Origin: Pezizomycotina sp. ARF18
Lineage: Eukaryota > Ascomycota
Direction of reading: 5' to 3'
Length of the DNA stretch: 64,000 nt
NCBI GenBank assembly: GCA_002224055.1
Contig: AZLU01000156.1
Span: 15,764 to 79,763, forward strand
Position 1 is the stretch's first letter. The number at the start of each line of letters is the position of its first letter. Below the pieces are notes generated by a model that was not told the DNA's origin, ran no database searches, and saw nothing but the letters and a program-made list of their open reading frames with translations. Both the position numbers and the translations under genes were made by a program. Shown here piece after piece: positions 3,020 to 60,210 of the stretch.

Positions 3020-4318
3020 ATGATCAACTCCCCAGATCAAGCCGCAGATGCCCACCACCACCGCGCCAGCACAGTGAGCAACGCCAGCAAGCGATGCGAT
3101 AACGATAGACTCCGTCAACGCCATCTTGCAATCTCACGGCGACAGCAATGGCAGTGGCAGCGGAGGTGGAAGCGGAGATCCGCCGTCAGGCTCAACCAAA
3201 GCAAATGGGACATGGAGATGCTGATGGAAGATACGGAATCGCTGCGGAGCTTCGTCGCCGAGCATGCGTTCGAGTACGGCCGCAGGTACGCCCGCAATAC
3301 GAATTGGCTGTTCCCCAGACGACGAGTCCGAAAGTGCGCGGCTGGATTTAGTGCACCATATTTATCTTTTACTGCTGGTCGATTGAGGCGAGCTAGTCGT
3401 CACCCGCAGCCGATAAAGAACCCCGAGTATATTCTCGACGTAGGGTGCGGGACGGAATCTGGTGCATCGACGCGGGCGATAAGTTCATGACGCGACGATA
3501 ATCGGAGACAGACGTTACGCGCGATACAGGTAAGAGACTAACTACAATTTCTTCTTTTTCTCCCTCTCCCTCTTATATACAAAATTCTTTCAATTCCTCG
3601 TCAGGTTCCTATGAACAATCGTCGGAAAGTTAATTCACGCTAACTTCCTCAAAAAAAAAAAAAAAAAAAAACAGCCGGAATGGGTCCCACCCAATGTCGC
3701 CTTCCAATGATAGACGACGCCGAGCTAGACTGGAACTTCGCCCACCTTCGACCTAATCACGTCCGCTACATGCGCGCGCAATCTCCGACTGGCCGCGCTT
3801 CTACCGCCAAACCTATCTCAACCTAAAACCCGGCGGCTATGCCGAATTCGTCGAACCAGAACTCGAATGCTACACCGACGACAATTCCCTCCCTCCCGAC
3901 GCAGACTTGCACCGCTTCACGCGCATGTACCACGACGCACAACAAGACTCGGACGTAAAACTAAAGATTTGCATTAACCATCCCAACATCATTGAGAGAA
4001 GCGGGCTTTGTCGATGTGACGAGTTGGTTAAGAAGGTGCCGTGTAATGTGTGGCCGAAGAGTCAGAGGATGAAGGAGCTCGGTGCATTTTCGCTGATGAG
4101 TTGCCTTGATGGGGCTGACGGCAGTGTTTGAAGCTGTTTACGGCGGTTTATGGGTGGACGGTGGAGCAGGTGTGGGAGTTTACCGCGAGGTTGAAGAGGG
4201 AGCTGAAGAATCCGAGTACCATATATACTTCAAGTACCACTTTATAACAGCGAGGAAGCCGGAGGTGATGGTGGTGGTAGCAGTAGCTCTGCTAGCGATG
4301 GAGCTCGGCATTGCATGA
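3020..4318 (+). CDS. LaeA-like SAM-dependent methyltransferase
   Basis: A class I S-adenosylmethionine methyltransferase of the fungal LaeA/TAM type. Across frames the order is: a low-complexity N-terminus rich in Gly, Ser and Asp; the family-typical stretch around SLRSFVAEHAFEYGRRYA; then EYILDVGCGT, the glycine-rich SAM-binding motif I; and after the intron PEWVPPNVAF, an acidic DDAELDW stretch, the LKPGGYAEF motif and a C-terminal aromatic segment. An intron at 3530-3674 runs from gtaaga to acag, with a gctaac branch site followed by a run of about 22 A before the acceptor. The frame changes at least four times; near 4150, VYGGLW and GWTVEQVW join if one G is restored in a G run. LaeA relatives influence secondary metabolism and development, but this large family is functionally diverse, so no pathway is assigned. 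The start is the ATG at 3020. Confidence 0.8.
3530..3674 (+). other. Intron of the methyltransferase gene with a poly-A run before the acceptor
   Basis: Donor gtaaga and acceptor acag. The branch-like gctaac is followed by ttcctc and then about 22 consecutive A. Removing it joins the codons for ..YAIQ to PEWVPPN, as expected in this family. The A run lies where a polypyrimidine tract is normally found. Confidence 0.75.
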
Positions 4319-4962
4319 GTAGGAAAGTTTGTGGACAATACCCCCGCTTCTCCTGCCGTTTATTTCGCTTCTGCCTTTTTTGCGGTTTCTGCTGTTTTGA
4401 TTTCAGTCTATGTTAGGGCTGTAATGTGCCAGGTTTTTCGTTCGGGTTCTTTCCAGCGATGCTAAATTGCAAGGCGCTCACGGTGTTTATATGGAGTTTC
4501 TTCCTTAGTGTATACTATTCATTGCTAGACACTTCAGATCTAGAAATTCAATACGTGGAGAGAGCTCTTTACAAGGCTCATCTAGCGAGATCTGACCAAG
4601 AAAACACACTTTCAACACGGGTATTTTCGGTGATCGAATTACCTCCTCTAAGATATAAACCAGCCGTAATCAACGATACGCACGAGGCGAACGTCAGTAA
4701 TAGCTATGAAGCATGATATATATACTTTCTCTGTTCCTTTAAAACTTCAAGTAAAAAAACAAGTTTTATTAACGCCGATTTTTAAACAAAAAAATGATGA
4801 ATAGCAGTGAAATCAAAGAAGGGTAACCATGAGTTATAAAATTCCCATAACGGAAATTCTCTAAAAAAAAAAAAAAAAGCAATGGGTTTTTTTCAAAAAA
4901 AAAAAAAAAAGTCATAAGGAGTATTTCCTCCCACCAGAACCACAAAGAAAGGAAAAAGTCGC
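4319..4962. other. Convergent 3' intergenic region
   Basis: DNA between the ends of the methyltransferase and V-ATPase C genes. An open stretch at 4426-4716 has no recognisable protein character and is probably 3' UTR. Two A runs lie at about 4863-4878 and 4898-4911. Confidence 0.5.
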
Positions 4963-6362
4963 TCAGGCAACTTCGAACAAGTACTCCACGAACGGCGCGT
5001 AATCCTCCCGCCGCCGTGCGAAGCCGTAAACTCCGCAACGCTAGCGTCATCCTTCCTCTTAATCTTTCCCTTCTTATCCCTGCCATACGCATTGCCACCA
5101 AAAAGTCGTACTTCTTCTCCAGTTCGTCCTTCGCCTTCCTGATAAACTTCCCTCCCTTTTTCTCAGGCTCCAGGAATATCCGCTGACGAACTCCAGCGGC
5201 AAACCGTACCTCAGTACCGTCTCCACGAACACCCTGAGCGTCTTTACGTGCATCCAGCCGGAAACGCACTCCGAGTACCGTTCGGCCCATCCTCAGCGTC
5301 TCCCCCCAGAGCTTATCAACCTGCTCCTCGACGCTCTTGGCTTCCTTCGCTTCGTCGGCTTCGGACGTCGCTGAGTAAGAGAAATCGCGGGGTGCCCACT
5401 TGTTTTCTCTACACTTGTGGGTAAACTCGGCCGAGTGCTTCTTGAACACGACGACGGAGAAGAGGACGAACTCGGAGTCGTCGGAGATGCGGTTCGCGAG
5501 CGCGGACGACCATGTCGCAAATCGTTTCGTAGGAGTTTAGGAAGTCCTTTTCGGCTGTTTTGGGACGGCGACGAAGATGTTGGTGAGGTACTCACTGTCG
5601 GGGATGAAGTGTTCCTTGCGGAGGATCGAGGCGAGGGAGCGGGTCGAGAGGTTGCCTCTGTAAAGAAGAATAACAATCGTTTTTTAGCTTCGGGTACGAA
5701 GATGAGAATGTTGGTGGAGGTTGGCCTTACTGCTGCTTCCTGTGTATTGCCTGCAGGTTACCCTTGGCCGCCTGGAAAGCGCCGTACTTGCTCTTGATGT
5801 CGTTGTCTAGCTGGCCTATTTCCTATTTTTCGAAAGAATAGTATTATCTTAGCAAAACAAATATTATGCAAGTTGCTTCTGAGATATACCTCCGTACCTT
5901 CTTCAGCACATCGATAATCTGCTCGATAGGTCTATTCATTCCGAAATTTACTCTTATTCCACTTGAAATTGCGTATGTACTGGTCGAAAGGTTCTACAAT
6001 GAAACGTCCATATTAGCATCAACATCCTCTCTTCACTTGAAGGAACTTCTTCATAGAAAATTACTTACTCTCCTCGACCAGCTTATTCTCCGCCGCCCTC
6101 CTCTCGTCGTCGTCGAAGATCTGCTTTATGACGTCCGCCGTCTTCGCTACCGTGGCCTCCGTGGACGAGTCCAGCTTCGACAGCTCGTCGGCCTGCAGGA
6201 CGAGGGCGTCCAGGGTTCCGATCTTAAACTCGGGGACCCTGAACTCTATCAGCGTCGCCTCGCTGGAGTTGACTATGTTCTGCACGGCCCGGAAGGCATC
6301 CTCGGAGTGGTTGGAGGAGACGATGGAGTTCGGGAGGAGACGAGGAGGTAGGTGCCCGACAT
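4963..6362 (-). CDS. VMA5: V-type proton ATPase subunit C
   Basis: Stator subunit C of the vacuolar H+-ATPase V1 sector, which bridges V1 and V0 on the cytosolic face of vacuoles and endosomes. The N-terminus MSGTYLLVS leads into [22 protein letters not shown], a subunit C hallmark. Next come the exon with [13 protein letters not shown], and [13 protein letters not shown]. Later frames give [46 protein letters not shown] and [12 protein letters not shown]. They also give the family signature (W)[19 protein letters not shown] and the C-terminus [14 protein letters not shown]. Three short introns of 73-75 nt sit at 5994-6068, 5823-5897 and 5658-5730. At least four one-base frame changes interrupt it. 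The start is the ATG at 6362. It is divergent from the prolyl-tRNA synthetase gene. Confidence 0.9.
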
Positions 6363-6786
6363 CGTGCCCTTGTATATCTGCTTATGTTTTTTGTTGATGA
6401 AGGGCGTGTGTGGTGGTGGAGGAAGATGGAAGTTTTAACGGGTTATTGGTGGAAGGTGGGATTTTAGCAATTAGCTGAGGTCATAAGGGCCATGCTGTTT
6501 TATTAAGAAAAATTTAGTGGTAAAACGTAGTGGGGCTCTTTTGGGCAGTAGCTGGCGGGTTTGGTGCATGAATTATTATTATTATTATTGAGTTCTGCGC
6601 CGAAGCTTCCAAAACCTCCGAAGGCAACGAAACAGTTTAAACAATTTTGTATCATACGACATTTTCAAAAAAAAAAAAAAAACTGCATTCGTGAAGCATT
6701 TTTATTACTACCTAGGTTCTCAATTTAGATCCCGTTAGATTCTTTATATAGCTACCAGTCAATAGGTATATCCACTCTAATTGACG
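6363..6786. promoter_or_regulatory. Divergent promoter region, VMA5 / mitochondrial ProRS
   Basis: 424 bp between two divergently transcribed start codons. It contains a short (att)n stretch near 6572-6590 and a 15-A run near 6667. No specific factor site is claimed. Confidence 0.45.
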
Positions 6787-9050
6787 ATGATACCGTTCTC
6801 CCCGAGGTCAATCTGTCGCGCCTGCGCAGGTTCTATCCTCCGGCAGCCCCGCACAACCCTGCAGCTAAAGCTCAAGGGTCGGCCCAGCAGCGTTCGGTGC
6901 ATAGTGGTAAGACTGTTACTCTCAATCTCTCTTCAATCTCTCAAATCATAGATCGAAGCTGATTTGTCGTCAATTGTTGCCAGACCGACAGCCGTACCCG
7001 AACCTCTAACTTCTGGGGCCCCGTCACCGTCTCGAGCAAAGGGAAGAACGAAGATGAGGACGTCCACGACTTACTGTCAGGGCGGGCTTCCTGAGGCAAG
7101 CGTACGCGGGGATATTCCACATGCTGCCGCTAGGCGTCAGGGTGCAGGAGAAGATCGAGAAGCTGATAGATAAGAAATGAAGAAGCTCGGTACATTTCCC
7201 AAACTTCACACCGTTCGGATGGTTTCTGGCTGCTAATTGGAGTTGGACTGTCACTGTTTAGGTGCGTCGAAGGTTTCCCTTTCCGCTATATCGTCAGAAC
7301 AGCTGTGGAAGCAGACGGACAGGCTGGATAAAGTCGGGAAGGAGGTCAGTCGAGCTCAATTCCTTATTCCAGTACGGCTCAGCAAAAGTCGAGAAGGAGC
7401 TAACGGCCACACTCTCAGGATATAGCTTTTCAGATTCAAAGACAGGAAGGATAAAAGGTTCCTCCTCGCGCCGACGCACGAAGAAGAGATTACAAGTTTA
7501 GTCAGGGACGCCGTAAGCTCGTACAAGCAGCTACCGATCAGGGTTTACCAAATATGTGCGCTTCTACTTTATTCGCACCATTTGACATTCTTCGGAGCTT
7601 ATAAATTCGTTTATATACAGCGCGAAAGTACCGCGACGAACGCCGACCCCGCGGTGCCTCCTACGCGGCCGCGAGTTCACGATGAAGGATCTGTACACCT
7701 TCGACATCTCCTCCACGGAAGCATTAACGACGTACAAACGAGTCCAGCAGGCGTACAGGAGCATATTCGACGAGCTCACGATCCCGTACTTGGTCTGCCA
7801 GGCCGATACCGGTGCCATGGCGGCAGCTTGTCGCACGAGTTCCACTTCGCGTCGGAGATCGGGAGGATACGTTCGTCCAGTGCACGAACTGCGGCTTTGC
7901 GGCTAACGAGGAGAGCATGACCGCGCTGCCGCCGAAGCTCGGGGCAAGAACTGCCGGCACCGAAGGATGTGGTCGTGTGGCATGGGAATAAGTCGGGATC
8001 GGTTGACGCTAGTGAAGGTGTACTTTCCTAGGAGGTCCTCGGAGACTATATTTGACTCGGATGGGAAGGATGAGAAGACGATATGGAAGGTTAATGAGGT
8101 CAACGTGCACGCCGTACGGAGATATCGGTAGCGGGAAGGACGAATTAGACCCAGCGTCGATTCGGCGAATGCGTACCGCAGTGGGAGAGTAATTTCACCG
8201 CGTATCCCGCCGGCCAGGACGGTAAGAATCCCGTGTACAGCAAAATCGTCAAGCTGTACGACTGCAGATTACTCGAAGGCGACGGCGTCAGCAAGCTCAG
8301 CACGTTCTCTAACCACGCCGACGTCACGTTCTCCCCGACCGAAGGCATTGGCTCAACAACTACTGAAGCATCGCATACTTCCAGCAGCACTTCGGCGAGT
8401 ATACATCCAAGCAATACCCACGAGCATAATAATAAGGCACCCATCCTCTACAGACGAGGAAGACTTCCGCTGAACCTCCTCCGCGTAACCCACGGCGACC
8501 GGGTCCCGAATGCCAGACCGGGCAGCTTAACACCACGACCACGATAGAGCTCGGCCACACGTTCACCTCGGCACGCGGTATTCGGACCCGCTGGGGGCGT
8601 TCGCGAAGATGTCGATCAGGATTACGTACCGCTGGAGATGGGGTGCCACGGCATCGGCGTGACGAGAATGATTACCGCCGTTGCGGATGCGCTGAGGGAT
8701 GCGAAGGGTCTGTGCTGGCCGACTGCTATGCGCCGTTTGCGGTCGTGATCGTTTATTCCGGTGAGGAGGCGGATATGTGGGCACGGAGCGGTGGGGAGGA
8801 GTGTATGATATGCTGGTCGGTTCGAACGGTCCTGTCGTTGCTCCGATGATGTTATACTGGACGATAGGAAGCAAGGGCTTGTGTGGAAGATGAAGATGCT
8901 GATCTCATTGGGTACAGCGTCATGGTCGTTGTAGGTAGGAGATGGAAGGAAGGCGAGAAAGTCGTGGAGGTGCAGCAGCGGAGGACGGGTCTGAAGAGGG
9001 AGATCGATCTGGAGGAGCTTGAGACGGAGATTCTGATGATGCTGAGGTAG
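6787..9050 (+). CDS. AIM10: Prolyl-tRNA synthetase, probably mitochondrial
   Basis: Class II aminoacyl-tRNA synthetase charging tRNA-Pro. The N-terminus ([20 protein letters not shown]) is basic and Ser/Arg-rich, like a mitochondrial presequence. Conserved blocks in order are: [83 protein letters not shown] and [18 protein letters not shown]. They are followed by [17 protein letters not shown] and a C-terminal anticodon-binding region ending [11 protein letters not shown]. This is the short bacterial-like ProRS type. Introns fall near 7189-7260, 7342-7417 and 7557-7620. It is among the most fragmented genes here; at the REFTMKD motif the frames join if one G is restored in GG. The symbol AIM10 is the yeast mitochondrial ProRS and is assigned by type. 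Confidence 0.88.
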
Positions 9051-9312
9051 TATCCTTCACGTTCGTCGTAGGAACAGTGCATGATACAGGTAGTCTTATT
9101 CTTTTTACGGGGAATTGTATGTATGTACAGGTATAATTACAAGTTTTTTTTTCTAAAGGTCTCCAAGCATGACAAACAGTAGTCATTCTTCATCTCCTGT
9201 TCTCCAGCACTTAAGCTCCTTATGTCCAGCGGTATAGAACGTCAAAATAAAAAACAACGGATTACACTACCGATGCCAGAGATCCGGTAGTATTTGTACA
9301 TTAGAGAAAATG

Positions 9313-9871: not shown

Positions 9872-10599
9872 TTGCTGATTGTGAGAGCGGGAGCTAATGG
9901 CAGCGCTCCCCTGGTGAATTGGAAATTGTTTTGTTGTTCGTAGTCTCTTTTGATATGGATGGTGATGATTGGACGTTGGAGGTTACTTTTTCGATAATTA
10001 CTTAGTTCAATTTTCGGGGTTTGCGCTAGGAGATGTTGTTGTCTGGCGTTACCCGTTTTTCGGTGGTAATGGAAAGTGGTGTCGCCCAATAAAATCTCTG
10101 CGGAAAGGATTTATCCGGCGGCGCACGGCAAGCATGCAGCTAATCCCCTGTTTATGACGATATTGGAGAGGGATTGTGACTGTCACCGCCGACTGCCCAT
10201 TCGTCCCTATCCTAACCCAAAATCTCACCTCCTCAGCCATTACTTCATATAAAGCGGTCAATTGACTCCTCTCGAGGTTTCTTGAACTTTCAAGCTATCC
10301 ATCTTGTTTTTTTTTTTTTTTAATACCTTCAGAAGCTTCCAGGATGCCGTCGACGGTTGTATAGTAGCGGCCTGACCACGACCGGAAGCTCACGGACATA
10401 TACAAAGAAAGTCCAACACTACGCCGCAGAGAGCAAACTTTTGATTCTATACTTAAGTATACCACGGGCGCAAGCAGATTCAACATCTTTCATACATCTT
10501 TAAATTGCGCAATTCAACCATACCCATTAACAATCCTCAAATTCCTACCAAGAACCATTACCCGCGAACCCCGCCAAAATAACCCACCATACCCCCACC
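9872..10599. promoter_or_regulatory. Divergent promoter region, RSM27 / HEM25
   Basis: 728 bp between two start codons of nuclear genes for mitochondrial proteins. It carries a 15-T run near 10307. The HEM25 side, about 10490-10600, is C/A-rich, as is common just upstream of ascomycete start codons (accATGG context at 10600). No other gene is seen. Confidence 0.45.
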
Positions 10600-11616
10600 A
10601 TGGCGCCCTCACCAACAACAACAGCAACCACCCCGCCCCGCAAAAACACAAGAAACTACCCTCTCCTCAAAAAGTAATATCCTACCGACACCCCCATCCT
10701 CCCTCAACATCTACAAGCACTTCGCCTCCGGCCTCGCGGGCGGTACCGTATCCGCCATAATCCTCCAACCCGCCGACCTACTAAAACCCGCGTCCAGCAG
10801 GCGAAATCATCAACTTTACTCTCCAGCATACGTACAATCCTCTCCGGTCCCTCCCCATACGTACCCTATGGCGCGGCGCTGTTCCTCCGCGATACGCTCT
10901 GGATTAGGTAGCGGATTGTATTTTACTACGCTGGATACGATGCGTAAAGCCGTCGCCGCGGCATCCTCTTCTTCTACCTCCTCCAATAACAAAACATCGA
11001 CAACGGGAGCACTAACGTCATCACCAGTAACGAATTTATTGACCGGCGCAACAGCGCGCGTATTCGCTGGCTTCGTAATGATGCCGATTACAGTGATAAA
11101 AGTCCGCTACGAATCCTCTTTCTACAGCTATAATTCCATCGCGGATGCTGGGGGGGATATATACAGAAAAGAAGGCTTTAGGGGTTTTTTTTCGGGGTTT
11201 GGTGCGACGGCGATACGTGATGCGCCGTACGCGGTGTTTACGTTAGTTTCTATGAGGCTGCGAAGGGGGTACTCAATAAAGCCCTCGGGGATGGTAGCGG
11301 GGAGATTAAAGCGACGACAACAACAATAGTAAACCTTTCATCCGGTTTGATTGCGGGCGCGTGCGCGACTGCTGTAACGAATCCGTTCGATGCGCTGAAG
11401 ACTAGGATTCAGCTGTTCCCCGGTGAGTACGGGAATATGTGGATTGCCGCGAGGAGGGTGTTACGGGAGGAAGGACCGAGGGCGCTGTTTGATGGTTTGG
11501 GGTTAAGGATGGGGAGGAAGGCGCTTAGCAGTGCGCTCGCGTGGACGGCGTACGAGGAAGGTATGAGGCGGTGGGCGAAGGCCGCGAGGAGCGAGGAGAG
11601 TAAGTCGTTGAGTTGA
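10600..11616 (+). CDS. HEM25: Mitochondrial glycine transporter, SLC25A38/Hem25 type
   Basis: An inner-membrane mitochondrial carrier that imports glycine for haem synthesis. Three carrier repeats are visible. Repeat 1 has [28 protein letters not shown]. Repeat 2 has LLTGATARVFAGFVMMPITVIKVRYES, with YRKEGFRGFFSGFGATAIRDAPYA after it. Repeat 3 has SSGLIAGACATAVTNPFDALKTRIQ, followed by REEGPRALFDGLGLRMGRKALSSALAW. The P-x-D/E-x-x-K/R signature is present in repeats 1 and 3 and occurs as MPITVIKVR in repeat 2, as in SLC25A38 proteins. The Ser/Thr-rich linker between repeats 1 and 2 is long. No intron is needed. About three one-base changes break the frame between 10670 and 11340. It is convergent with the glycine cleavage T-protein gene. 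Confidence 0.9.
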
Positions 11617-11971
11617 ACAGTAGATGAAGAAGGTCCTCTCCACTATTTTTTCCTTAATTTATACGCTCGACGTCGCTACTTTGCTTATGTTTACGATGCA
11701 TGTTTTTCCTTTTGTATAATATATCTTTTTTTGGTGGAAGGGCATGGAAAGCATTAATGATGTACATATAATTTATATCCACCTAATGAGCAGAACAAAA
11801 AAAGCATTCTTGAGCATAAATCATTTATACCAAAGGAATTATATGTGAAGAACAATAATACTCAATTACTTGTACATTTACATCCTCTCTACCTCTCCAA
11901 CAAACTTTTAACACTACTACATACACTACATCACATCAACAACCTTTTTTCTTACTTTCTTTTTAAACTCC
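11617..11971. other. Convergent 3' intergenic region
   Basis: 355 bp of AT-rich sequence between the ends of HEM25 and GCV1, with no gene. Both 3' UTRs and polyadenylation signals must lie here. Confidence 0.6.
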
Positions 11972-13522
11972 TCATTTCGCCGGCTTGTAGTACTTCGTCT
12001 CCACGAATGGCATCTTCTTAACCGTCGCGTCCCTCACTTTTCCCCGAACTTTAATACCGACTTCCGTCCCGCTCTTGTGCATGCCGTGCTTAATATACCC
12101 CATCGCAACATTCATCCCGCGCCCAGCGTCGGACTAGGGCTACCGCTCGTAATGTGCCCGATTACCTCCCCGCTCTCTTTATCTACAACCTCAGCGCCCT
12201 CACGCGCAGGCGCACCCTGCAGCACGAACCCCACGCGTCTCTGCTTTACGCCGTTCTTTAACTGCTCCAGTATCTTCTCCGCTCCGGAAACCCACCGGAC
12301 TCCCGTCGTGATTTGGGAATAATCCACCCTAGTGCCCCCTCGATGGGCGTGGTCTCGTCGGTTAGATCGTGGCCGTAAAGGCACATACCCGCTTCGAGAC
12401 GTAGGCTATCGCGCGCGGCTAATCCCGCGAGTTTAACTACGTTACCGCCGAGAGAATCTAGTAAAGCCTGCGCGAACGATTCCGTCATATCACCCGGAAC
12501 GGAAATTTCGAAGCCGTCTTCACCCGTATAACCACCGCGGGCAATATGCACTACCAACAACGCCTGCCCGTTCCCATCCCTCGCCGCTCCAGATACCTTC
12601 TCAAGCACCTCGAAAAGCGACATTGTCCGAAATACAATTCATCGAGCTTCGTATCGTTCGTAAAATACTCTCCAACGCATCCTTCGCTTTCGGTCCTTGT
12701 AACGCTATGAGACCCTGCTCTTTCATCTCCGAGTGACGGACTTTATCAGATGCGGAGCGGGAGGAGTTCCAGGTGTTTAAGTGGGTGGTGATGTATCCTA
12801 TGTCTTTATCGCGGCATGCAGCGTTTGTGACGACGTAGAAGGCGGTGTCGGAGTGCTTTGCTATTACGGTGTCGTCTACTATGCCGCCGGAATCGTGAAG
12901 GAAGGTTGAGAGGGTGGAGGAGTAGGCGGGTAGGGATTTTAGGTCGGATGGGGTGATGGATTCTAGGAAGGCGAGGGCGGAAGGGCCGTTATTTGGTGTT
13001 GCTGTAAAGAATTTTAGCATCAGAAGATGTTCCCCTCTGACTTTTCCCTCAGGCAAAGGAAAAGAAATATGGAAGCAAGGTAACAAGGCAAGGTAGAAAG
13101 GAGCGAGGTAGATAATGAGGTGCAGCGCTACGTACCACCATATGCGAAACGTCAAACAACCCGCACTGCTCCCGCACCCATTTGTGGCTCTCAAGGTGGA
13201 CTGGTCTTTATACTGCATCGGCATCTCGTACCCTCCGAAGCCTGCCATCTTCGCCCGTTGCGGACGTGTAAATCGTACAGTGGCGTCTTCTTCAGCTTTT
13301 CACCCGTGGAGGTTGCGTAGCTCCTGAAAGCGACATCGACATTGCTTTGGCGCTTTGGAAAAGTTCGGATTTGAGCTGGACGGGGAGTAGGAGTGGTGGA
13401 GGTAGAAGTAAATTTGGTAGCGGCGGATAAGCACCGGAGCTGCTGCGGATGAGGCGTAGGAGCTTTACGGAGGAAGGTAATTGGGACGTCGCGCGCCGGA
13501 GGGAGGCTCTGGAGATCATCAT
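11972..13522 (-). CDS. GCV1: Aminomethyltransferase (glycine cleavage system T-protein)
   Basis: Folate-dependent T-protein of the mitochondrial glycine cleavage complex. It releases ammonia and passes the methylene group to tetrahydrofolate. The N-terminus [15 protein letters not shown] is a clear mitochondrial presequence. Blocks in order: [40 protein letters not shown], an intron (gtacgt to ttacag, about 13008-13130), then [120 protein letters not shown] and [11 protein letters not shown]. It ends [11 protein letters not shown]. At least five one-base changes occur; near 12286 restoring one G in a G run joins GGFP to GAEKILEQL. The start is the ATG at 13522. Confidence 0.93.
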
Positions 13523-14079
13523 TGTGGAGATCTAGAATTGTCGTGGATGAACTGGCGGTGATCGGGAGCTTAGAGGTTCAATTGACGACTCTTGTGAAGA
13601 AAAAAACTTTTAGAATTGGCGGCCCTGAGCCAATTTTTAAAGTGTTTCTAGCACATGCGAAATTCTTGGTGGGGGAATTGACATCGCATGACGTTTCTGC
13701 TTAAGCTTTTCGGCCACTATCCGACCCCAGCTTAAATTATGCAGGAAACACACCTACATGAATTGAAAGAGCTCCGTTTAGCTGTAACCGTTCATCTAGA
13801 GTCTTTATTTTACGTAAATTTTATGGAAAAATTGTATCAAATTATATCAAGCAATTATTACTATTTATTATTTATCGTACACGAGTAGAGAAAAAAAAAT
13901 TAATATTAATACGATTTGGTTTGTCCAAAATACAGGGAAAGGCAAGCTCCGTCACAAAGAGGGCGGAGGCAAACAGCAATTATAAGTCCGATAACAATAT
14001 GTAAAATCAATTATCCCGAAAGAATGCCTGAATGAACGCCATATATATCCGTCAATTGCAATCTCGCATCTAATCCGCG
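13523..14079. other. Intergenic, no gene seen
   Basis: 557 bp, the right part strongly AT-rich. It contains the GCV1 upstream region and the 3' flank of the dehydrogenase gene. No conserved frame. Confidence 0.5.
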
Positions 14080-18231: not shown

Positions 18232-21200
18232 TTATACGTTCTCGTCAGAAGGCTTCTGCCGTTCCGACGACGAAGCAGGGTGCTCGTTCGATTTCGTGGA
18301 CGGTTCCCGCTTCACCGAATCTTCGGCCTTGGACTCCGCTTCGGCTCCACTGTTCGGGAACCTAGTCTCTCCTTCGATCCTGTGTGCGCGGAAGGTCCAA
18401 ACCTAAAGGAGTCTCCGTCGCTACCGGGGACCCTCTCGACCGGAGACCATCCGCCGATGCTTCCGGCAATTATAGCGGGGACCATGGCGCCGGCAGCGAA
18501 TGCGGAGTTCGACCTCGACCTTCTGCGCCTGTGAGAGCCAGGGGTGGACGGTGGGTGGATGTGCATAATGTCGTGAGGGTTGCTAGGGTCGTCGTGGATC
18601 GGGGTGTGGGGGATCGAGCCGGACTTGGACGACGGGAGGAGCCTGTGGCGGAATTCTTGGGTCTTGAACTTCATCTGGTTCAAGCGACCACCGCGGACCA
18701 TCTTGAGGAACTGCAGCTCCTCGCGGATATCTTGGATAGCCTGATTCCATTCGAACCTGTCGTTGTCGGAAACGTATACATTATCGGGTTTCTTTTCCTT
18801 GTAAAAGATGGATGGAAGAAGCTTCTCGACGAAACTATCCGGAATGAGACGGATGACAACAGCAATGACGAGGGAGATGGCGCCAAGGATGAGGGAAATG
18901 GCCCACTGTCCACCGTTGAGGCGGACGACGGAGAAGGCACGACCACCGACGAAGATGATCATAACCTGTCCGGCAATCATAATGACGTTGATTCCAATGA
19001 AGAACCAGTTGCGATGAACTCCCTCGAAGATGTTGAACTTGTTATCCAAACGCCTGTTATTGTACTGGTTGAAGATCTGCATCCAGACGAAAGTGTTGAA
19101 AACCAAAGAGTCGAGCTGGTCCCTTTCCTCGGGGGAGTCGTATTTCAGAATTTTGGCTCCGGCAAAGTGAAGAATGTAGGTAACCACGAGCTGGTAGATG
19201 GCTTGTCCCAGAATCATCTTCCACATAGTGATGGTAATCAAGGGGCAGACTTCCTTTGCGGTGGGCGGTCGAGAATCTTTCGGGTCGGCGGATCGGTAGC
19301 GAGAGCAAGGGCGGCGAAAGTGTCCATAATCAGGTTCACCCAGAGCAGCTGGACGGCACTGAGCACGGAAGTTTCATCCTTAGAGGCAACGGCGGAAACG
19401 AAGGCGAGGAGGACGGCAGTGATGTTGACAGTCAACTGGAACTGCAAAAACTTCTTGACAGCGTCGTTGACAGCTCTTCCCCACATCAAAGCCTTGACGA
19501 TAGAAGCAAAGTTGTCGTCCATAAGAATGATAGCAGATGCTTCCTTAGCGACCTCAGTACCGGCGATACCCATAGAGAAACCGACGTCCGAAAGTTTAAG
19601 AGCGGGACCATCATTGGTACCGTCACCGGTGACCGCAACAGTTTCACCGAGATCTTTGAGGATACGAACGAGCTTCTGCTTATCTTCGGGGCTGGACCTG
19701 GCGAGAACTTGCAATCGAGGAACGGTCTGAACGAGCTGTGCCCGGTCAGCTGCCTAAATTTGGGGCCTTCCATGACGATACCACCGCTAGTGTAGATCCC
19801 ACATTCCGTAGCAATAGCCTTCGCAGTGATCATGTTGTCACCAGTAACCATGCGCACGAACACGCCGGCCTTCTGACATTCCTTGACAGCGTCGGTAACA
19901 CCGAGACGCAGCGGGTCCTGAATACCGACGACTCCAATGAAAACCATATCCCTAAAAATATCTTCGAACTGAGCTGCTTGGAGTCGTCTTCCACGGTTCT
20001 AACGCCACGAGGAGGCCACTGCTGGAAATCCCGGTAGACGAGTCCGATGGTGCGGAGAGAACGTTGGGCGTAGCTGGTGATGGTGTCCTGAAGAGATTTG
20101 AAGATTTCGGGAGACAGTTTCGTATCGGCCGCGCTAGACGTAGGGTCGGCGATAACGCGGGAACACTGGGCGAGCAATATTTCGGAGGCACCCTTGACGT
20201 AGAGCCTGTACGTACCATTCACAAGCTGAACGACGACAGCCATGCATTTCTTCCAGAGTCGAACGGAACCAATTGAACAACCTTAAAACCGCTGCGTTCG
20301 TGAGCGACAGGTCCCATACCCAAGTAACTCTTAGCAAATCCAAGCAAAGCAGTTTCCGTTTTTGAGCCGATAAAGGTCGATTCTCCATTTTCCTCTCCTT
20401 CGAAAGCCGTAGAGTTGAGAACGATTGACTGCATAAGAAGATCCTTGATGGTATTCGGGAGAGTAGACACGAAGTCGCTCATGTTCATGCTGCCATCAGA
20501 GTCATCGGCTCCTTTACCTTTCTCGTTCGATGCTGCTTGTGAGGCCTCGCCAAACCGCATGGACGAACCGAGAGTACCAGCAACGACAGTCATCTTATTT
20601 TGAGTCAGGGTTCCTGTTTTATCCGAGCAGACAGTCGTAGCGTTTCCCATTGTTTCGCAAGCGCGCAGAACACGAACCAAGTTGTTGTCCTTCAACATAC
20701 GGGTCGTTGCGAAAGCGAGGGCGAGAGTTACCGCAAGAGGAAGACCCTCCGGGACGGCAACAACGACGATAGTAACAGCGGTGATGAGAATTTGCATGAA
20801 ATTCTGAGCCTTTTCAGCGGGAGTACGGGTGTCGCCCTTGAGGTTGACCAGGAATCGAATGAACAGAACAACGAACAGAAGCAACGCGGAAGCACCACCC
20901 AATTTGGCAATACTTTCGGCAAGGCTATTAAGCTTCATCTGCAGAGGGTGGCTTCCGTATCTTCCCTAAGGGCCATCATGATGCGTCCGTGGCTGGAATT
21001 GACACCAACGCTAGTAACAAGGTAGGTACCGACACCCTCGAGAACTTTAGAGCCGGAGAGGATGAACGGGTCGAGCTTCTTAACATTCTGTCCAGCCATC
21101 ATTTGGGACATAACCTCGTCTGCAGCGGTTTTCTTCATTTGATCCGATTCTCCAGTCGCAGAGGATTCGTCACACTTAACGTTGTGTCCGGCAATAAACA

Positions 21201-22418
21201 CGCCGTCCGCAGGAATCATGTCACCGGGTTCGAGATGCATGACATCGCCAACGAGGATCTCGTAGACCGATATCAGAACGGATTTACCGGACCGGATAAC
21301 TTGACCTTACGATCCTCTTTCTGTTTTATTCATTAGCTTCCGTACGATAGATGCAAAACATGGGTTCAAGGAGTTAAGCGGGTTATACCTTTTTGTTCAG
21401 TTTGACGAATTGCCTTTCCTTTTGGTAATCATTTCCAGCACCGACGAAAACAACGATAGCGATGGCCGCAATAATAGCAACACCTTCAACCCATTCAACC
21501 TTCGGTTCTCCATCCTTATGCTTGACACCGAATGTTTGGTATAGACCGAGAGCCAAACTAACAACAGCCGCACACGAAAGCAATATCAAGACCTTATCCT
21601 TCAGCGCGATCCACATCAATAGGAAAATACTCTTCGGCTTCCTCTCAGGTAGTGTATTGTCTTTGTAAATGCGTAATCGATCCTTGAAGGCATCGCCGTG
21701 AAGCTCGACAACAGTGCCTTCCTTACCGGACTCTGTGGGTTCTACAGCCGACATATCTTCAACTTTTGTGGAAGGGTTAGGCCGGAGCAAATTCCTCGCC
21801 TCATCAATTGACCGATTTCCGTCCAGTAACGTCTCGTCTAAACTGAGGCCGGCCTGAACATCCGTCCGTAAACCATATTCTAACCCGCGAAGTCCACCCA
21901 ATGCCTTGAGAGCCGGTAAGCTCTTCGGGTTAAACATTTTGTTCAGTTGGCCTGGCGAAAAGGCGAAACGGTTGTCCTCCACTTCGAAATCGGCCTCGTT
22001 TCCAGGGTCGGGTTTCAAGGCGTCATCGTCTGAAGTCCCGGACGCGTCGGCAGTAGGTTGAGCCGGGAATATCGTTGTTCCTCCTGTCGACGATGCGGGT
22101 GATGACGCGTCCATTGAATCACCTCTAGATTCGCCAGGTCCTCCCGGAACATCGAGATATGCTTTCCCTCGTGACGTTGGAGGATTTGCAGTGGGGTGGT
22201 CGGACGTTGTGATTCCGTTGTAGGCGATTGAGAATTGGACGGTATGGGGGAATTCGGATGAAGAGAACCGGAGGACTAGACGAAGTAAAATCCTTTAGCG
22301 ATACAACCCAATATGATGCCATTGGCAAGAGTTGCCTTACAGTCTTCGAAAGTACCTTTTTCTCCTCCACAGAGGTCTCTTTCGGAGGAGGAGCCTGCTG
22401 CCTCTCCTGGTCCGACAT
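18232..22418 (-). CDS. PMC1: P-type Ca2+-transporting ATPase, PMCA/Pmc1 family
   Basis: A P2B ATPase pumping Ca2+ out of the cytosol, usually into the vacuole in fungi. The order is: a long N-terminal region rich in Ser/Pro/Asp; [18 protein letters not shown]; the first membrane pair ([40 protein letters not shown]); actuator motif [12 protein letters not shown]; and transmembrane 4 with [19 protein letters not shown]. Then come phosphorylation site [35 protein letters not shown] and hinge [34 protein letters not shown] lies in transmembrane 6. A charged C-terminal tail may hold an autoinhibitory segment. Introns at 21321-21388 and 22275-22355. The tail stop at 18232 belongs to the Glu/Lys/Ser-rich frame, which I prefer over an Arg/Pro-rich frame ending near 18312. 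Several single-base frame changes occur, but the core is largely open. The start ATG at 22418 opens [14 protein letters not shown]. Confidence 0.95.
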
Positions 22419-39201: not shown

Positions 39202-42200
39202 CTAAAGCCAGACCATCCCTTCAACACTCAACCCTTCGCACGCCGAGGACAGTCGTACTAACGCTCGCCAGCTGCTCGACGTACTTCCCATCGTCCCCGT
39301 CGCGACGAAAGTCTCCGCAACTACTGTCGGGTCGGGCGACGAGGACGGCCAGATCGAAGCAGGACTTGAAGTGGTCCTTGCGGATGTACGTGCCCGCGCC
39401 GACGTAGACGCCGTGCAAAGCGAGCGTGACGTCGGGATGTACATGTTGCGTATCAGGCGGATCTGGCCCCAGTCGGACTGGTTCCGGTACTCGTAGAGCC
39501 AGCCGGAGACTATGCTCCGCAGCTTCGATTTGGCTTCCTCGAAGGCGACTTCGAGGTCGTCTTTCCACTTGTTGCGGCGGGGTCGCGGGGCCGCACTGGT
39601 GAAGAGGAATACATTAGCAAAAATCCTTAAAATGTTTCATGTAAACAGAAAGGGAGAATAATCTTACTTTGGGTTCCTCGAGAGGACAGCTCTCCACTCA
39701 TCTAGCGCGGCTATTCCAATAACCAGCAGTTCGTACTCGACGTAATTTGCCGCCGCAAAGTGATCTGTGATGCCGGCGGTTATAGACATATCTTCGTCGT
39801 CCTGCTGGCCGGGATGACGATGCTGCTGGGAATCCGGAGTGAAAGTTGGCGGGCGGCATTAAGGCGACCAGTCACTAGATAAAAAATTATCATCAATATA
39901 CACGCAAGTGAAGGGAAATGGTGGATAGTAAGAGCAAAAGGTTTCTACTTACGATAGAAACGTTTATAAATAACGTTCCCAGCCCGGACGAGGTCATCCC
40001 TCATGGAATCGACGAGGAGCATCACTCAAGCGCCTTAAGCATGCGTTGGTCCTCCACTTCCAGCTCGCGCCTAAACTCCGGCCCGTTCGCCAGCTGGCGC
40101 GTGATATCCTGGGGCACCTCGTCCTTCTTGAACATCTCCTCCGTCTGCGACAGGCAGTTCTCCATCGTCCTCCGCAGCGTGGCTTCGACGTCGAGCCTGT
40201 GCACCCTGAACAACCGTATCATCTCCACCCTGGTCTGGTCGTCGTCGATGTACAGCAGGATTTCTCCATGATGTCGATGGCCTTCGCCCTAGTGAGTCTT
40301 CCGGCGTAAAGCGGAATGACGCTGTATTTTGCCGCGGCGGCCAACATGCGATGTATCCCGCGATTACTTCTTCGGCGTCGTCCGCGCTAGGTCCTTCCAC
40401 GTACATCGAACGGATAGCTTATATACGATGATAATGTGCGCGACGACCCGGAGCAACTCCAGTCCGTGCAGTCGACCGGGTAATGGAATCCAGAACAGGA
40501 CTGAACGTCGGGTTCTCCCGGAATGCCCTGAACTGGTTTGCCATTTCTTTAATAAGCAGCGAGAATCTGTCGGAGATGATAGCCCCTGGACCGTCCTGAG
40601 CGCGAGACACGATTGCGCATCCATGAATCGGAATTCGTTAGATTTCGACGAGAGGATGTCAACGACGGTTTCGAGCGTGTTCTCGACGTTAAACATTGGC
40701 ACGCCGGACTCAGCGATCTCAAACTTCCGTAGGGTTGACGGTATTCTATTGTGCTGCTGTAGGTATTCTTCGTATCTGTTCTCGACAATGGCGTTCACGT
40801 GCGCGAAAAGGTGGTCGTGCCAGGTTTCACAGACAGGGAGACCTAGAAGCAAGTGTTAAAACCCAATTCATCCAAAAAAAAAAAATTTAAAAAAATTGTT
40901 ACTACTCACGCTCTTGAGATCACCAGCCAGGATACCGTAGCAGGCAGCCTCCCACATGTCTCCGGGCCCCGACCTGGGTTTTCTAGCTAGGGCAAGACAC
41001 ATCCTCCTCCACAGAAGCGCGGCGACGGTTTCCCTTGGGCTCGCTGCTATCCTCCATCATCGAGTTTTCGAAATCCCTGCCGATCTCATCATCTACCAGC
41101 AGATCGTAGCCTTCTTTTCCTCCCAGGATCGAAGGTATCCTCCAATGTTGGCCACATTCGCGACACCAATCCGCGGCGCCATCTAGGTCACCCTTCCGCA
41201 GGAATTGCCACAGCGTGCGTCCGAAGCCGATGTCGTACGTCTGGTCATCCGTCTCGATCGACCGCCTGAGCCGCGACTGGGAATCCGGGTCGAGTTCGGT
41301 AACAATGTTCGCGCTGGGGTCGTGCGACGAGGGAAGCCGGTCCGGGTAGTTGTAAATCCCCGTCTTGGAAAGCCTGATCTCCTCGCCGGGCTTCTGGTTC
41401 ATGCGCTTGTACTGCTTGAGCGTGTGTAGAGTGTACATCCACCCGCTGGACCTCACGTCGTGGTCGCCGTCGGTGTCCTTGGGTATGACCGGCGGCGGCG
41501 CAGTTTCCTTGAGCCACTCAAGGATGATAACCAATTCCCGGAACTTGCTGTCGTTCTTAAAAAGCCTCCGGCGCAACACCTCGTTGGATTCGTAGTCCGC
41601 GAGGGGTGTGCCGTTCGCACTGTTGTTAGCCTCCGCGTGCTGCTCGAGGCTACCGCGGTGCTTCAGCAGCAAGCCCAGCAGGCTCCACGTCTTCCCTTCC
41701 ATCTCGAGGTACTTCATGTCGTCGGCCCACTCTATTTCCCTTTCTTCGTCCTCGCCGTGAAAATCCATGGCTTTCTTGTCGATGGCCTGGTGGTGCGACC
41801 AGACGTCGGCCGTAAAACCGTCGATGAGCTCCTGTGGTTCAGGATCCTCGGTGGCGGATTTGATCCGAAACTCGTCGACGCGCTTCGCGAAGTTTTCCAC
41901 CTCGGGTCCCAGCTGCTCGTCGTCGATGGGCATGTTGTAATCCTCCTCGGCGTCTTCTTCCAGCATTGCGTTAAAATCCGAGAGGGAACCTAACGGTTGT
42001 TGTTCGCGAACGTTCCAGTTAGCAATTTTTTCCGAAGAATAAACCAGACATTGGAGTTTACATTAATGCTAGTTGAATGGATTGATCGCCAGAGTCGGAT
42101 AATTACTGTACGAACCTGACGAAAAGGGGACAACCGCTTTCGAGCCGGTCGGTGAAAACACGTCGCTGCCCTGGGAGTTAACCTATTTGCGAAAGAAAGG

Positions 42201-43001: not shown

Positions 43002-43036
<35 letters not shown>

Positions 43037-43237
43037 GCCGAGAGCGGCTCAAAAAAAAAAAAAAAAAAAAAAACATCTCTCTAAATTATTACGTAATCAC
43101 ACATGCAAAAATTTTTCACACATAAAACTCCCTTCACCACCAACTTCTTTCTTCTTTTTCTTTCTTTTTCTCTTTTCCTCATCAATGTCATTTTAGGCGC
43201 CCATTAGAGTCTCGGATCAAACTTCATTTTTTTTCCA
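42499..43237. other. Intergenic
   Basis: NUP84 upstream region, then A/T-rich DNA with a 28-T run (43004-43031) followed 20 bp later by a 23-A run (43051-43073), forming a potential long A:T foldback. No gene. Confidence 0.5.
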
Positions 43238-44101: not shown

Positions 44102-44137
<36 letters not shown>

Positions 44138-44811: not shown

Positions 44812-45474
44812 TCATGCCCCTCCGATCTGTTCTTGATGGACCTCCAAGGTGTCTCCGTCCTGCATGTCAAGCTGTAGGTAAGGGGGGAAGCAAATGTCAG
44901 CCTTGTGAACCAATAATCATCGCTGCTGGTATATTGAGTCATAAGGATCAAATGCTAAAGCAATAGGAGGGAAGGAAACATTGTGGAGATGAGAGGTAGA
45001 GCAAGAATGGGACAATGAGGTTGTGTGTGGGGGTTAAGTAAAAGTAACCTCGAAAACAAGGGACGAAAAGCCTTGAAGAAAATTTTCATCGCCAGTCTCT
45101 CCCGCGAGCGCGCAAAGTCGCGTTCAGCACACGTCGCCAAAACGCGATTTTGCCACATAGACTAGTGAATCGTTATACTTGAATGGGGATGGAAGGAAAG
45201 AAGGAAGCTTCAAGGGGAAGTTGTGCGAGCTCCCGTGACTTACAGTATCCGGGGTGTCGGAGGCCTGGACTCTGCTGCCGTCGAAGAGGAAACGGACGGA
45301 GCTGGGAGTTTTGCCCTGGCGGTCGCAGAACGCGTCCATGAGCTTCTTCAGCTGGGTTGATCGTTTGATCTTGAAGAAGACCTCGTTGTTGCCGTCAGTG
45401 ACCTTGATGTTAAGATGGTCGGGCTGCTCCTGTTTCTCCTGCTGAGGAGGCGGGGATCTGTCTTGATCGGACAT
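44812..45474 (-). CDS. SMT3: SUMO (small ubiquitin-related modifier)
   Basis: Ubiquitin-like modifier conjugated to lysines of nuclear and other proteins. Exon 1 (45244-45474) encodes [20 protein letters not shown], then the beta-grasp start [34 protein letters not shown] and [10 protein letters not shown]. Exon 2 (44812-44871) encodes [19 protein letters not shown] and the stop. The intron is 44872-45243, 372 nt, with GT-AG ends. The protein is 96 residues, as expected. The mature end is Gly-Gly, with a single Ala to be removed by a SUMO protease. Unlike most neighbours, the frame is intact throughout. Confidence 0.97.
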
Positions 45475-45867
45475 TGTGGTTGACGAAGACAGATCCGTGG
45501 GAAGATGGGTTTTTGTTGAGTGGTTGGTTCTTGGAGATGGAGGAGAAAGGTGTTGGGTTCTGGAGAGAGAGAAGAGTCAGCGATTGCCACGAAAGCGAAG
45601 AGAGATAAGGTTTGAAGGAGCAGCGCAACAAAAGCTTAAGAAAAAGAGCCATGATTCACGTACCTGTGGAAGCTGAGAGCTCTGAAGGGCGCTTTCTGTA
45701 GATTAAAAGGATTGCACAGTGAGAAGATCCAGAGGGGGATGATTTTTACTTTATAAAACTGCCAGGTTCTTGTATTATTGTGGGTTGATTGAATGAGAGA
45801 AGAAGAAGGAAAAAACAGGGAAGATGGGGACGTCAAGGTTGTTGGTTTAAAGTAAAAATTTATCTTG

Positions 45868-45898
<31 letters not shown>

Positions 45899-46741
45899 GG
45901 AAACAGAAACAAAGTGAGGAAAATTTTAATAGCAGCAAATTTAGCAGCCAAAGTAAATAAAATGCAATAATGGTAAAGAAGTAAAGTAAAATAAACTTGA
46001 ATAAAAATAAATTTACGGACGATTTATTTTTAATCACTGGAGACCGCCGAGGGGAACCGCCGAAGCCGAAAATCTCAAAGCAGAAGAAAGGTCCACTCCT
46101 TTCCGTGACCTTCTTGCTAAGTTTTACTAGGGGATATTTTCGTGAAGAGCTCGCCGGAGACTTGACCGGCAGTTACCACGAACTTCTCCATACACGCACA
46201 GAAACAAAAACCCCTGCTTCCCTAGCTAGCAGCATCTCGCGGAGTCGGCGGCATTCTGCAAGTCAACAAAGACGAGGCTTTCGAACGGCATACTATTGCC
46301 ATTTCGTCTGAGGAAAGCTAGATCACGAAGCAGTAAGTAAAAAAATCCCTAATTCTATCTGTAGGTCACTGGTTTTGCCGCAATGGCTTGCTATCATTGC
46401 GAATGGAGTATGTGTTCCTAACTGGAGCTTTTTTGCAGGGAAGTCTGATGTCATGATTCTCGCGGAGAAGCCATCATTTTTATATCCGACAAGTCCGACG
46501 ATCGAAATCTCCTAAAGCAGCACCAAACATCTCCTCTCTAGCTTTCTTGAAGCTTCCTCACATCCTATAAACTTCCTCCGAACTGGCGGAAGCTGCAATT
46601 GCTATATCCGCTTTCACCATTTGGTTGAGGCTGTTACTTTTCCTGGGCTTTTGATTGTAGCAGCTTGTAGCTCATTTGGTTGTCACTCGGGCAAAGCACC
46701 GGCTTGAACCATTATCCCAGAAGCCCAGAAATAAAAAGAAA
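45475..46741. other. Divergent intergenic region between SMT3 and CMC4
   Basis: 1.27 kb with a 24-A run (45868-45891). Probably holds both promoters and 5' leaders. The frames at 45410-45652 upstream of SMT3 read as leader DNA, not protein. Confidence 0.5.
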
Positions 46742-47164
46742 ATGGTATGCTGTTTTAATTTTATTCTCAATTTTTTCTTCTTTTTTTTTCGATATGCCAA
46801 GTTCTTCCATCATCTAACAATTCATTCCACAAAGCCCTCAAAGTCCCCACTAGAGCGCGGCCTCGCCTCCGACCCACCTTGCCATCCGCAAGCCTGCGCA
46901 ATACAGGACTGTATACAGTCTAACCGCTATGACGAATCCAAATGCCAAAAGCAGATAGACGCGCTGTACGCCTGCTGCGCGGAATTCTACAAGCGGAACG
47001 GCGATGATGCGCGGACGGTCAGCTGTCCCAAACCGAAGCTGCTAGATTTGAAGATGAAGCAGCGGAAGGAAGAAAAAGAGAAAAGCGGCGGAAGTGGGGG
47101 GAAGGTTGTGGAGGGAAGAGTAGGTAGTGGATACGTGACCATATATGACGAGGGTGATCGGTGA
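46742..47164 (+). CDS. CMC4: Cmc4-like twin CX9C protein
   Basis: A small mitochondrial intermembrane-space protein related to yeast Cmc4 and human MTCP1NB/CMC4. Only the ATG (46742-46744) lies in exon 1. An intron of 90 nt (46745-46834, gtatgc to caaag with ctaac) precedes the main exon. The body contains CHPQACAIQDCIQSNRYDES, then KCQKQIDALYACCAEFYKRN, and SCPKPKLLDLKMKQ, the expected Cmc4 order with C-x9-C spacings and the SCPKPxLL motif. A Lys/Glu and Gly-rich tail follows, longer than in yeast. The frame is intact. The start codon fits because the intron leaves phase 0. Confidence 0.88.
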   Translation: MVCCFNFILNFFFFFFRYAKFFHHLTIHSTKPSKSPLERGLASDPPCHPQACAIQDCIQSNRYDESKCQKQIDALYACCAEFYKRNGDDARTVSCPKPKLLDLKMKQRKEEKEKSGGSGGKVVEGRVGSGYVTIYDEGDR

Positions 47165-51783: not shown

Positions 51784-52722
51784 TTACGCAGCTCCAACGC
51801 CAGTTGGTAACAGCCTCGCCATCGTCTTCGCGTGCTTCGGCTCGACCATCAGCGCCTTCGCTTCAACCAGCAGCTTCCCGTCCAGCGTCTCTATCTTGCC
51901 CTCAACCCACGCCTTCCTACCCTCCACCTTCGTCGTCGTAGCTTTAAGGACCACCGCCTGGTCCGCCATGCACGGCGCGCGGTAGTTTACTTCCAAACTA
52001 GCCGTCATAGCAACGTGATTCGGCAGCGCTAAAAACGCACACCTCGCCAATCCCTCATCCAATATCGTCGCGAGTAATCCGCCGTGAATGATCCCCGGAT
52101 GTCCACAGAGTTCTTTTCCGAGGTACTGTATGCTAGTGAAGCTCTTCCCTTCTTTATCGCTAAATACGAATGGCGGTACGACGATCCTGTTCGGTCCCGA
52201 AAGGACGCCCGCTGTCATTACCTGCGCGCGGTAGTGTAGCGGTATTTGTAAATGCGGGCGAGTTTCTTTGAGGATGGGTCGGACCGGAGGGCTGTTACGA
52301 CGGGTGGGAGGAGATGAAGGATTCGATTTCTAGCGTTTCAGGGTCGGATGTTTCGGGGTCCGGAGGAAGTGGGCGCGGATGGGTTCGGAGGCTTCGAGCT
52401 GCATTTTGTGCGCGAGGAAAACGCCGGCGATTAGGCAGGTTGTTGTGAGGGCGATGCGGAGGAGGAGCGGGACTTTTTTTGTGGGGAGGAGAGGTCTATT
52501 GGGTGCGTCGTGCCGGATGTGCGGTTGTAGGTGTAGACGGAGGTGTTGCGGGTGCGGGTTGGTATAGCTGTTAAGGGAGAGAAAGTTAGGATAGATGCAA
52601 TGGGATTGATTTGAGCTAGAGAAGAGGTAATGGCAGGTTTATATATCTGTTTCCCTTTGTTATGGCTTACATCGGAGTACTGGAGCAGCAGCGTATGTGC
52701 GCCGCACGGAGGTCGCGATCAT
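51784..52722 (-). CDS. Hot-dog fold thioesterase, probably mitochondrial
   Basis: A 4HBT/PaaI-type acyl-CoA thioesterase-like protein. Exon 1 (52671-52722) encodes MIATSVRRTYAAAPVLR, a mitochondrial-type presequence. The intron is 52568-52670. A transmembrane-like segment LLRIALTTTCLIAGVFLAHK follows. The catalytic domain begins at GVLSGPNRIVVPPF and has GHPGIIHGGLLATILDEGLA, the HGG-x(7)-D/E signature of the superfamily. Then come VAMTASLEVNYRAP and KAWVEGKIETLDGKLLVEAK, and the end is LLPTGVGAA. The organisation resembles fungal FMP10-like proteins, though the natural acyl substrate is unknown. Two or three one-base changes interrupt the region 52220-52480. The catalytic part is intact. Confidence 0.85.
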
Positions 52723-58670: not shown

Positions 58671-59559
58671 TGGGCTAAACAAAAGAACTAGGGAAAACGA
58701 GTGGTGGTCGTTTGTTCTCTTAGATTAAGATCGAGAAACAGTATCAACAGAAACGGACACTGGAAACGAGATCGCCATTATGATGGTAAGGGTGACGGGA
58801 GCGAAGAAGAGCGTAGAAAGAAGAATTAAACAAAGTCCTAAGTAAAAAAGATGTGAAGAATTGAGGTGAAGTATAAGTAGGTAGGTAGGTAGCATAGTGG
58901 ACGTTAATGGGTTTTTTCTTTCTTAGGGAATTTTTCGTCACTACAGCGTTACCTCCAAGTGCTCAATTCTTTAATTTTCTTGGCACCTTTGATTGAAATC
59001 AGATAAGATGCTAAACCGAGCGAACTGAACTCTCTTTCTTCCCACAGAATCCTACCCTTCGGAGGAAGATAGATCGTCGCCCTGCGGGCTCCTAGCGCTC
59101 GATTTCCTCTTGATTTAGATGAAGGTAAGATGGAAATATTTCTTGGCATTTTTCCAATCCGAGCGAGTTGAACCCTCTTTCTTCCAACCATTCGTGGAAG
59201 AAATTGGAATACATCATCCTTTCAACACTTGAGATTTGGACCAACAAACATGGAAGTGGATGAGAAATTTGGAGAGAAGAAAATTAGATCACAGATCATC
59301 GATCAGTGCTTCTCATTTGTTCAAGGAGAAATTTATTCCTTTTCATTCGTCATTGCTCGCTTTTGGTTTTGATTTGTTTTAGGACGTTCTATTGAACTTT
59401 GAGTTTAAGAAGTTTAAGACCTTATCGAGATCGAGATGCATTAGTACGCTCGGACATACAACAAAAACTGTTCAGTTTAGTAGCAAGAACTATGGAAAAG
59501 TACATCATACATAAATCATCCACGTATTACTCTTTTCAGTAGCCGTTATGTTTTTATGG
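58671..59559. other. Intergenic with the right dispersed-repeat cluster
   Basis: Repeat modules at about 58968-59215. The rest is unremarkable DNA. Confidence 0.5.
58968..59215 (+). repeat. Dispersed repeat, right cluster
   Basis: Order A (from 58976), B (from 59073), A' (from 59139), partial B'. The A to A' period is about 163 bp. Modules match the left cluster at 55.7-56.0 kb with substitutions and one larger length difference between B and A. Same orientation as the left cluster. Confidence 0.75.
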
Positions 59560-60210
59560 TTAAGGAATATGGCCATATCCACTATTCGCTGCTTTTCTTT
59601 TTTCTAGCCAAATTTCATGGCTGATCCTACTCTTAAGCACGAGGTTGAGCAGAGTTTTCAAATTCCTAGAAAGTTTTGCACAGGTAACTTCCGCTGGTAG
59701 CGAGTACCACTTGTCCTGTTCCTCCATACACGAGTTACGTCCATCGCGAGCGTACATGAAGAAGCCCTCTCTCTCGCTCGAATCGTAAATATATACAATC
59801 CGCGCCATCAACGCAGCGGTAGTAGCAACGCATATGAACCCGTTCAAAATGCGCCTAGGCGTCGAATGCGAGTAAAGGACGAGGAACCACCCAAGAGGAC
59901 ATGCCAGTACCAGACCACGACCGTGATCTCGCCACAGGTTCTCTTCGTCACAGTTTAGGAGGAAGATGTAGCACGCGGCGATGTAGCAGGTAGCGGCGTA
60001 CTTGAATTCCACATCCTTCGTGAACGTGGCTTCGAAGTCATCGTCGACCGTGAAATATTTGAGCAGCCCCTTATCTTTGGTTTTGCTTTGGAGGCCTCCA
60101 TGGGGATATCGAAATCGTGACTTGAAACTTGGACCGAAGCGTCTTTCGTGGGCACGATGTTTTTTTTTTTTTTTTCCCCTTATGATAGCGAGTAATAATG
60201 TACGGGGCAA
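59560..60210 (-). CDS. Unrecognised integral membrane protein
   Basis: About 190-200 residues. After an N-terminal polar part (KDASVQVSSHDFDIPMEASK in one frame, then GLLKYFTVDDDFEATFTKDV) there are three hydrophobic segments: KYAATCYIAACYIFLL, GLVLACPLGWFLVLYS and NGFICVATTAALMARIVYIY. A charged C-terminus with KLSRNLKTLLNLVLKSRISH and GYGHIP follows. A frame change near 60085 separates the N-terminal exon. The likely start is an ATG near 60103 (MEASKAK) or further upstream. There is no family resemblance that I can name. Three transmembrane helices with the C-terminus in the cytosol would fit, as inference. Confidence 0.45.
   Translation of the reverse strand: MPRTLLLAIIRGKKKKKHRAHERRFGPSFKSRFRYPHGGLQSKTKDKGLLKYFTVDDDFEATFTKDVEFKYAATCYIAACYIFLLNCDEENLWRDHGRGLVLACPLGWFLVLYSHSTPRRILNGFICVATTAALMARIVYIYDSSEREGFFMYARDGRNSCMEEQDKWYSLPAEVTCAKLSRNLKTLLNLVLKSRISHEIWLEKRKAANSGYGHIP

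Follow-up and report, generated by a model that had tools for sequence, protein, structure and literature searches.

Frame Breaks in Conserved Genes of a Fungal Contig Are Very Probably Consensus Errors of the Assembly

Conserved genes in the 64-kb window analyzed here (positions 15764-79763 of contig C156, from an assembly of 46.36 Mb in 408 contigs) change reading frame again and again, and we put the probability that these breaks arose as errors in the assembly consensus, and not from biology, at about 97%. In the living fungus, which looks like a filamentous ascomycete, the genes are very probably intact. Under this reading, indel-rich reads combined at limited depth would have produced a consensus whose most frequent fault is the lack of one base within a short homopolymer, with an error density in nuclear genes of roughly one to five per kilobase. 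An artefact had been proposed in a sequence-only reading of the window, and that proposal is upheld by breaks in HSP70 and CCT genes across the genome, by losses in 5S rRNA genes and by the lack of another copy for the genes searched. The evidence base throughout is the assembled sequence.

Frame Steps in Genes of the Window

The window genes were analyzed with an open-frame listing, Pfam profile scans and three-frame displays. Frame steps were read by eye from the displays, guided by known sequences of each family, and introns were set aside before the steps were counted. The genes considered are the following.

2990..4315, + strand: methyltransferase-like (weak match); Methyltransf_23 E 0.0093, below the cut-off; frame change at about 4128-4150 in the three-frame display
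4960..6381, - strand: VMA5, V-ATPase subunit C, several exons; PF03223 (V-ATPase_C) pieces in differing frames; six steps of class -1 and one of class +1 (or -2)
7426..7903, + strand: core part of prolyl-tRNA synthetase (ProRS); tRNA-synt_2b in two frames; one intron and one class -1 step near 7655
10583..11613, + strand: mitochondrial carrier, named HEM25 in the earlier reading; Mito_carr in two frames; four class -1 steps
12060..13577, - strand: GCV1, glycine cleavage T protein; GCV_T and GCV_T_C pieces in differing frames; five class -1 steps
18315..22294, - strand: PMC1-like calcium-transporting P-type ATPase; Pfam pieces in successive frames; one intron and six class -1 steps
34740..37575, - strand: MAK21; CBF/Mak21 E 6.8e-46, PDB 8e5t chain 5 E 7.8e-55; an intron and then a class -1 step
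39205..42062, - strand: NUP84; Nup84_Nup100 matched piecewise across several frames; an intron plus one step of class +1 (or -2)
44812..45576, - strand: SUMO, two exons, intact; Rad60-SLD and ubiquitin matches; second exon in phase
46661..47161, + strand: CMC4, matched part intact; PF08991 over 62/62 positions in a single frame, E 4.1e-28
51787..52329, - strand: thioesterase domain in an unbroken single frame; 4HBT positions 2-77 of 79

Within single genes, one and the same Pfam profile crosses from frame to frame in VMA5, ProRS, GCV1, HEM25, PMC1 and NUP84. The E1-E2_ATPase, Cation_ATPase and Cation_ATPase_C profiles run across frames in PMC1, whose assignment as a calcium pump is backed by PDB 9gsd_A, and the identity of GCV1 is backed by an alignment with PDB 1wsr_A. 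In NUP84 the Nup84_Nup100 profile is matched in pieces covering positions 2-207, 241-375, 428-496, 602-659 and 658-717. For the gene at 7426..7903, which we take to be ProRS after the name given in the earlier reading, positions 1-44 and 53-108 of tRNA-synt_2b lie in two frames, the second piece (E 0.0023) falling below the cut-off.

The one-base-short class, class -1, accounts for 23 of the 25 steps read by eye from the displays (PMC1, 6; VMA5, 6; GCV1, 5; HEM25, 4; ProRS, 1; MAK21, 1), and the two remaining steps, near 5505 in VMA5 and near 41050 in NUP84, are of class +1 (or -2). Were the two classes equally frequent, at least 23 of 25 on one side would be expected with a probability of 1e-5. 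This tally covers resolved steps, and MAK21 and NUP84 carry further frame changes outside it. Some seeming gains in HEM25, GCV1 and VMA5 turned out to be pairs of consecutive losses, separated by a brief passage in the third frame. Together with the profiles that cross frames, the 23 class -1 steps bear out the claim that conserved genes of the window are broken.

Base loss, to which the sequence-only reading ascribed the frame changes, accounts for them in part: the class -1 steps agree with it, but some of the change in MAK21, PMC1, ProRS, VMA5 and NUP84 is due to GT-AG introns. Such introns were recognized by eye at about 35751-35671 in MAK21, with a one-base class -1 step just after it, and at about 21388-21321 in PMC1, where a frame step is left over beyond the intron; others were seen in ProRS, VMA5, NUP84 and SUMO. 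The sequence-only reading had named six sites of base loss, and those at 4150, 7655, 12286 and 12111 are supported, but no step could be made out in the displays at 27897 (COA4) or 34732. The frame change in its methyltransferase is visible, but the identity of the gene depends on the weak match listed above. RSM27 could not be confirmed as a gene, two of its pieces having no matching Pfam family, and COA4, viewed in the three-frame display, could not be confirmed either. Both genes described as intact were found to be so: SUMO with its second exon included, as judged from the domain matches and the exon phase, and CMC4 over the whole of its profile in one frame. At the observed error rates, genes so short will often escape.

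A P-loop protein lies in pieces at 54031-55090 on the - strand, with matches to AAA_16 (E 8.4e-6, below the cut-off) and DAP3 (E 0.057); a PDB search with its main piece (54533-55090) gave no match. Scanning the 64-kb window for tRNA genes and for Rfam families gave no matches.

HSP70 and CCT Genes throughout the Assembly

A profile search of the whole assembly for HSP70 gave, among the matches listed, 38 pieces at seven loci. A junction between successive pieces was called tight when the net length difference was below 20 bases, a cut-off that was picked after the CCT rows had been viewed and was applied to both families. Among the matches listed, 21 of the 31 successive HSP70 junctions are tight, and none of these 21 keeps frame: 17 fall in class -1 and four in class +1 (or -2). 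The net values are -1 at 14 junctions and -2 at four, which are the four of class +1 (or -2), with +2, -4 and +14 making up the remainder. Five of the seven loci contain the tight junctions; the other two consist of one piece and of two distant pieces and are uninformative.

The Cpn60/TCP1 profile likewise gave, among the matches listed, 33 CCT pieces at eight loci. Thirteen junctions were at first selected by gap size, and one of intron size (net 62) was left out, so that 12 of 25 junctions, in seven of the eight loci, combine a frame change with a net difference below 20 bases (eight of class -1, four of class +1 (or -2)). For the two families together, 12 of 15 loci carry frame changes that leave too little space for an intron, at 33 junctions, the junction counts being approximate because some matched pieces overlap heavily. 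The densest of these loci lies on contig C49, with six junctions in 1.8 kb, and there are fewer in the CCT loci. Among the matches listed, a full-length match in a single frame was found at none of the HSP70 or CCT loci, a result that introns alone could produce. A cell in which all HSP70 and CCT genes were broken could hardly live.

5S rRNA Genes as an Untranslated Control

The assembly contains 15 matches to 5S rRNA, and 10 of these closely resemble one or the other of two types. The comparison left out the divergent copies (L021 and L023-L026; 5 of the 15), as well as the last base of each match, which belongs to the flank. Four copies (L012, L013, L014 and L016) show no deviation, and in the remaining six close copies a single base is lost nine times and gained once. 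These ten indels correspond to 8.4 per kb (95% range, 4 to 15), and one of the losses is common to two copies, so the events are perhaps not all independent. Substitutions number two, both in L019, and the divergent copies L024 and L025 differ likewise at those positions. Each of the nine losses is located in a run of two to four identical bases, whereas runs of at least two make up about 41% of the positions in one of the two types; the probability that all nine would do so by chance is about 3 in 10,000. Some of the differences among the 5S copies could be genuine, as changes in pseudogenes. The divergent 5S-like copies L021 and L023-L026 are perhaps pseudogenes in part.

Ribosomal DNA, a Mitochondrial Contig and A/T Runs

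Four copies of the rDNA on contig C189 were compared over 8,198 readable bases. No base was substituted, and length differed by one base at three places, or 0.37 per kb (95% range, 0.08 to 1.07), so that differences are much rarer here than among the 5S copies. An insert of several hundred bases was seen in locus L087 just short of the 3' end of the 18S gene and, as recognized by eye, is possibly a group I intron.

Contig C50 (231,088 bases) is apparently mitochondrial and carries all 99 of the LAGLIDADG_1 matches listed and 33 of 54 tRNA matches. Because of this share of tRNA matches on the mitochondrial contig, tRNA genes were kept out of the error counting. Frame is better kept on this contig, where two-domain LAGLIDADG pairs lie in one frame in 20 of 25 cases, a rough comparison given that homing endonuclease genes undergo natural decay, and 11 breaks within single domains show no class bias (6 versus 5). 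COX1, considered as a mitochondrial control, lies in five short pieces and was too fragmented to inform. The results for the rDNA and for C50 are compatible with errors that fade as depth rises, depth itself being something that we infer.

Pure A/T runs of at least 15 bases occur 34 times in the 64-kb window (for example at 2769, 27231, 44105 and 60926), 47 times in 112.6 kb taken from nuclear loci elsewhere, but just twice in mitochondrial loci totalling 44.8 kb, or 42.1 kb once overlaps are removed. An apparent peak in A/T run length at 16 bases in the window was not seen in those 112.6 kb of nuclear sequence and was dropped.

Origin of the Frame Breaks

One alternative is that the frame changes are introns taken for breaks and nothing more. 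GT-AG introns were indeed seen by eye in MAK21, PMC1, ProRS, VMA5, NUP84 and SUMO, but the step persists past the intron in MAK21 and PMC1, the 33 HSP70 and CCT junctions with net differences below 20 bases, mostly of -1 or -2, leave no room for an intron, and 5S genes show the same losses; we regard this explanation as very improbable. We judge it just as improbable that the window is a decayed, nonfunctional duplicate whose genes have intact counterparts in another part of the genome. Pseudogenes do typically carry frame breaks, but a search of this assembly with the V-ATPase_C profile found no second copy, all matches lying in the window, and a DNA search with 39.3 kb of the window (3001-23000 and 34700-53999) returned neither a close copy nor an allelic contig, its matches otherwise being of at most 50 bases; moreover, other contigs carry HSP70 and CCT genes that are broken alike. 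A short-chain dehydrogenase at 14647-15172 of the window has a paralogue at positions 55482-55933 of contig C206, with 70-73% DNA identity.

It is also conceivable that the genome is real as assembled and that frame is restored by ribosomal frameshifting or by RNA insertion editing. That almost all frame steps are of one class would fit such recoding, which is known from Euplotes (frameshifting) and from Physarum mitochondria (editing). Against it stand the several breaks per kilobase in some genes, the scarcity of differences between rDNA repeats and the lack of any common site motif noticed by eye in the displays, and we know of no fungus with frameshifting or editing of this kind. Frameshifting, moreover, is confined to translated sequence and does not fit the data, because the untranslated 5S rRNA genes carry like losses, and it leaves unexplained that the missing base varies between 5S copies within a single genome. 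We rate recoding as a whole at about half the already slight likelihood of either preceding alternative, and marginally lower still the specific case of a fungus with a nuclear genome that is in reality short of individual bases, several times per kilobase and in both protein and 5S genes, and with insertion editing of the RNA that supplies them.

Deletion-biased consensus error in the assembly is by far the most probable origin. Not all steps are of class -1, the exceptions being 2 of 25 window steps, 4 of 12 CCT junctions and 4 of 21 HSP70 junctions. We infer limited depth and missing polishing as the cause, and there are good grounds for attributing the errors to unpolished long reads. The reads might have been of the PacBio continuous type, as is faintly suggested by the survival of A/T runs of up to 32 bases; older nanopore data usually shorten long A/T runs.

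Comparison with Known Systems

The broken look of essential genes is almost certainly an ordinary problem of assembly quality. Gene counts, pseudogene claims, gene-family losses and selection analyses based on this assembly would be unreliable. Dispersed, near-identical 5S copies provide a simple, reference-free gauge of indel error in draft genomes.

Homopolymer indels are known to break genes in long-read assemblies, and in assemblies made from long reads only, as described in two reports (PMC12007338, PMC8812927), short indels in like-base runs disrupt conserved frames as they do here. The example given in PMC12007338 concerns less than 0.05% of the genome, whereas the density in genes here is higher, at roughly one to five per kilobase. 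The present losses also differ from those of long-read-only assemblies in that they occur in runs of just two or three bases as well.

In Euplotes, programmed frameshifting provides a frame change of fixed class that many genes need, at particular mRNA motifs. A change of fixed class in many genes is likewise seen here, but the 5S rRNA genes are hit too. In the mitochondria of Physarum, insertion editing makes up for bases that the DNA lacks at numerous positions, both in coding genes and in genes for structural RNA; the sequence assembled here likewise lacks bases in both kinds of gene. The bases missing in Physarum are mostly C and the genome is mitochondrial, whereas the bases missing from the present nuclear sequence are of several kinds, lie in runs and, among the 5S copies, are missing from some copies only.
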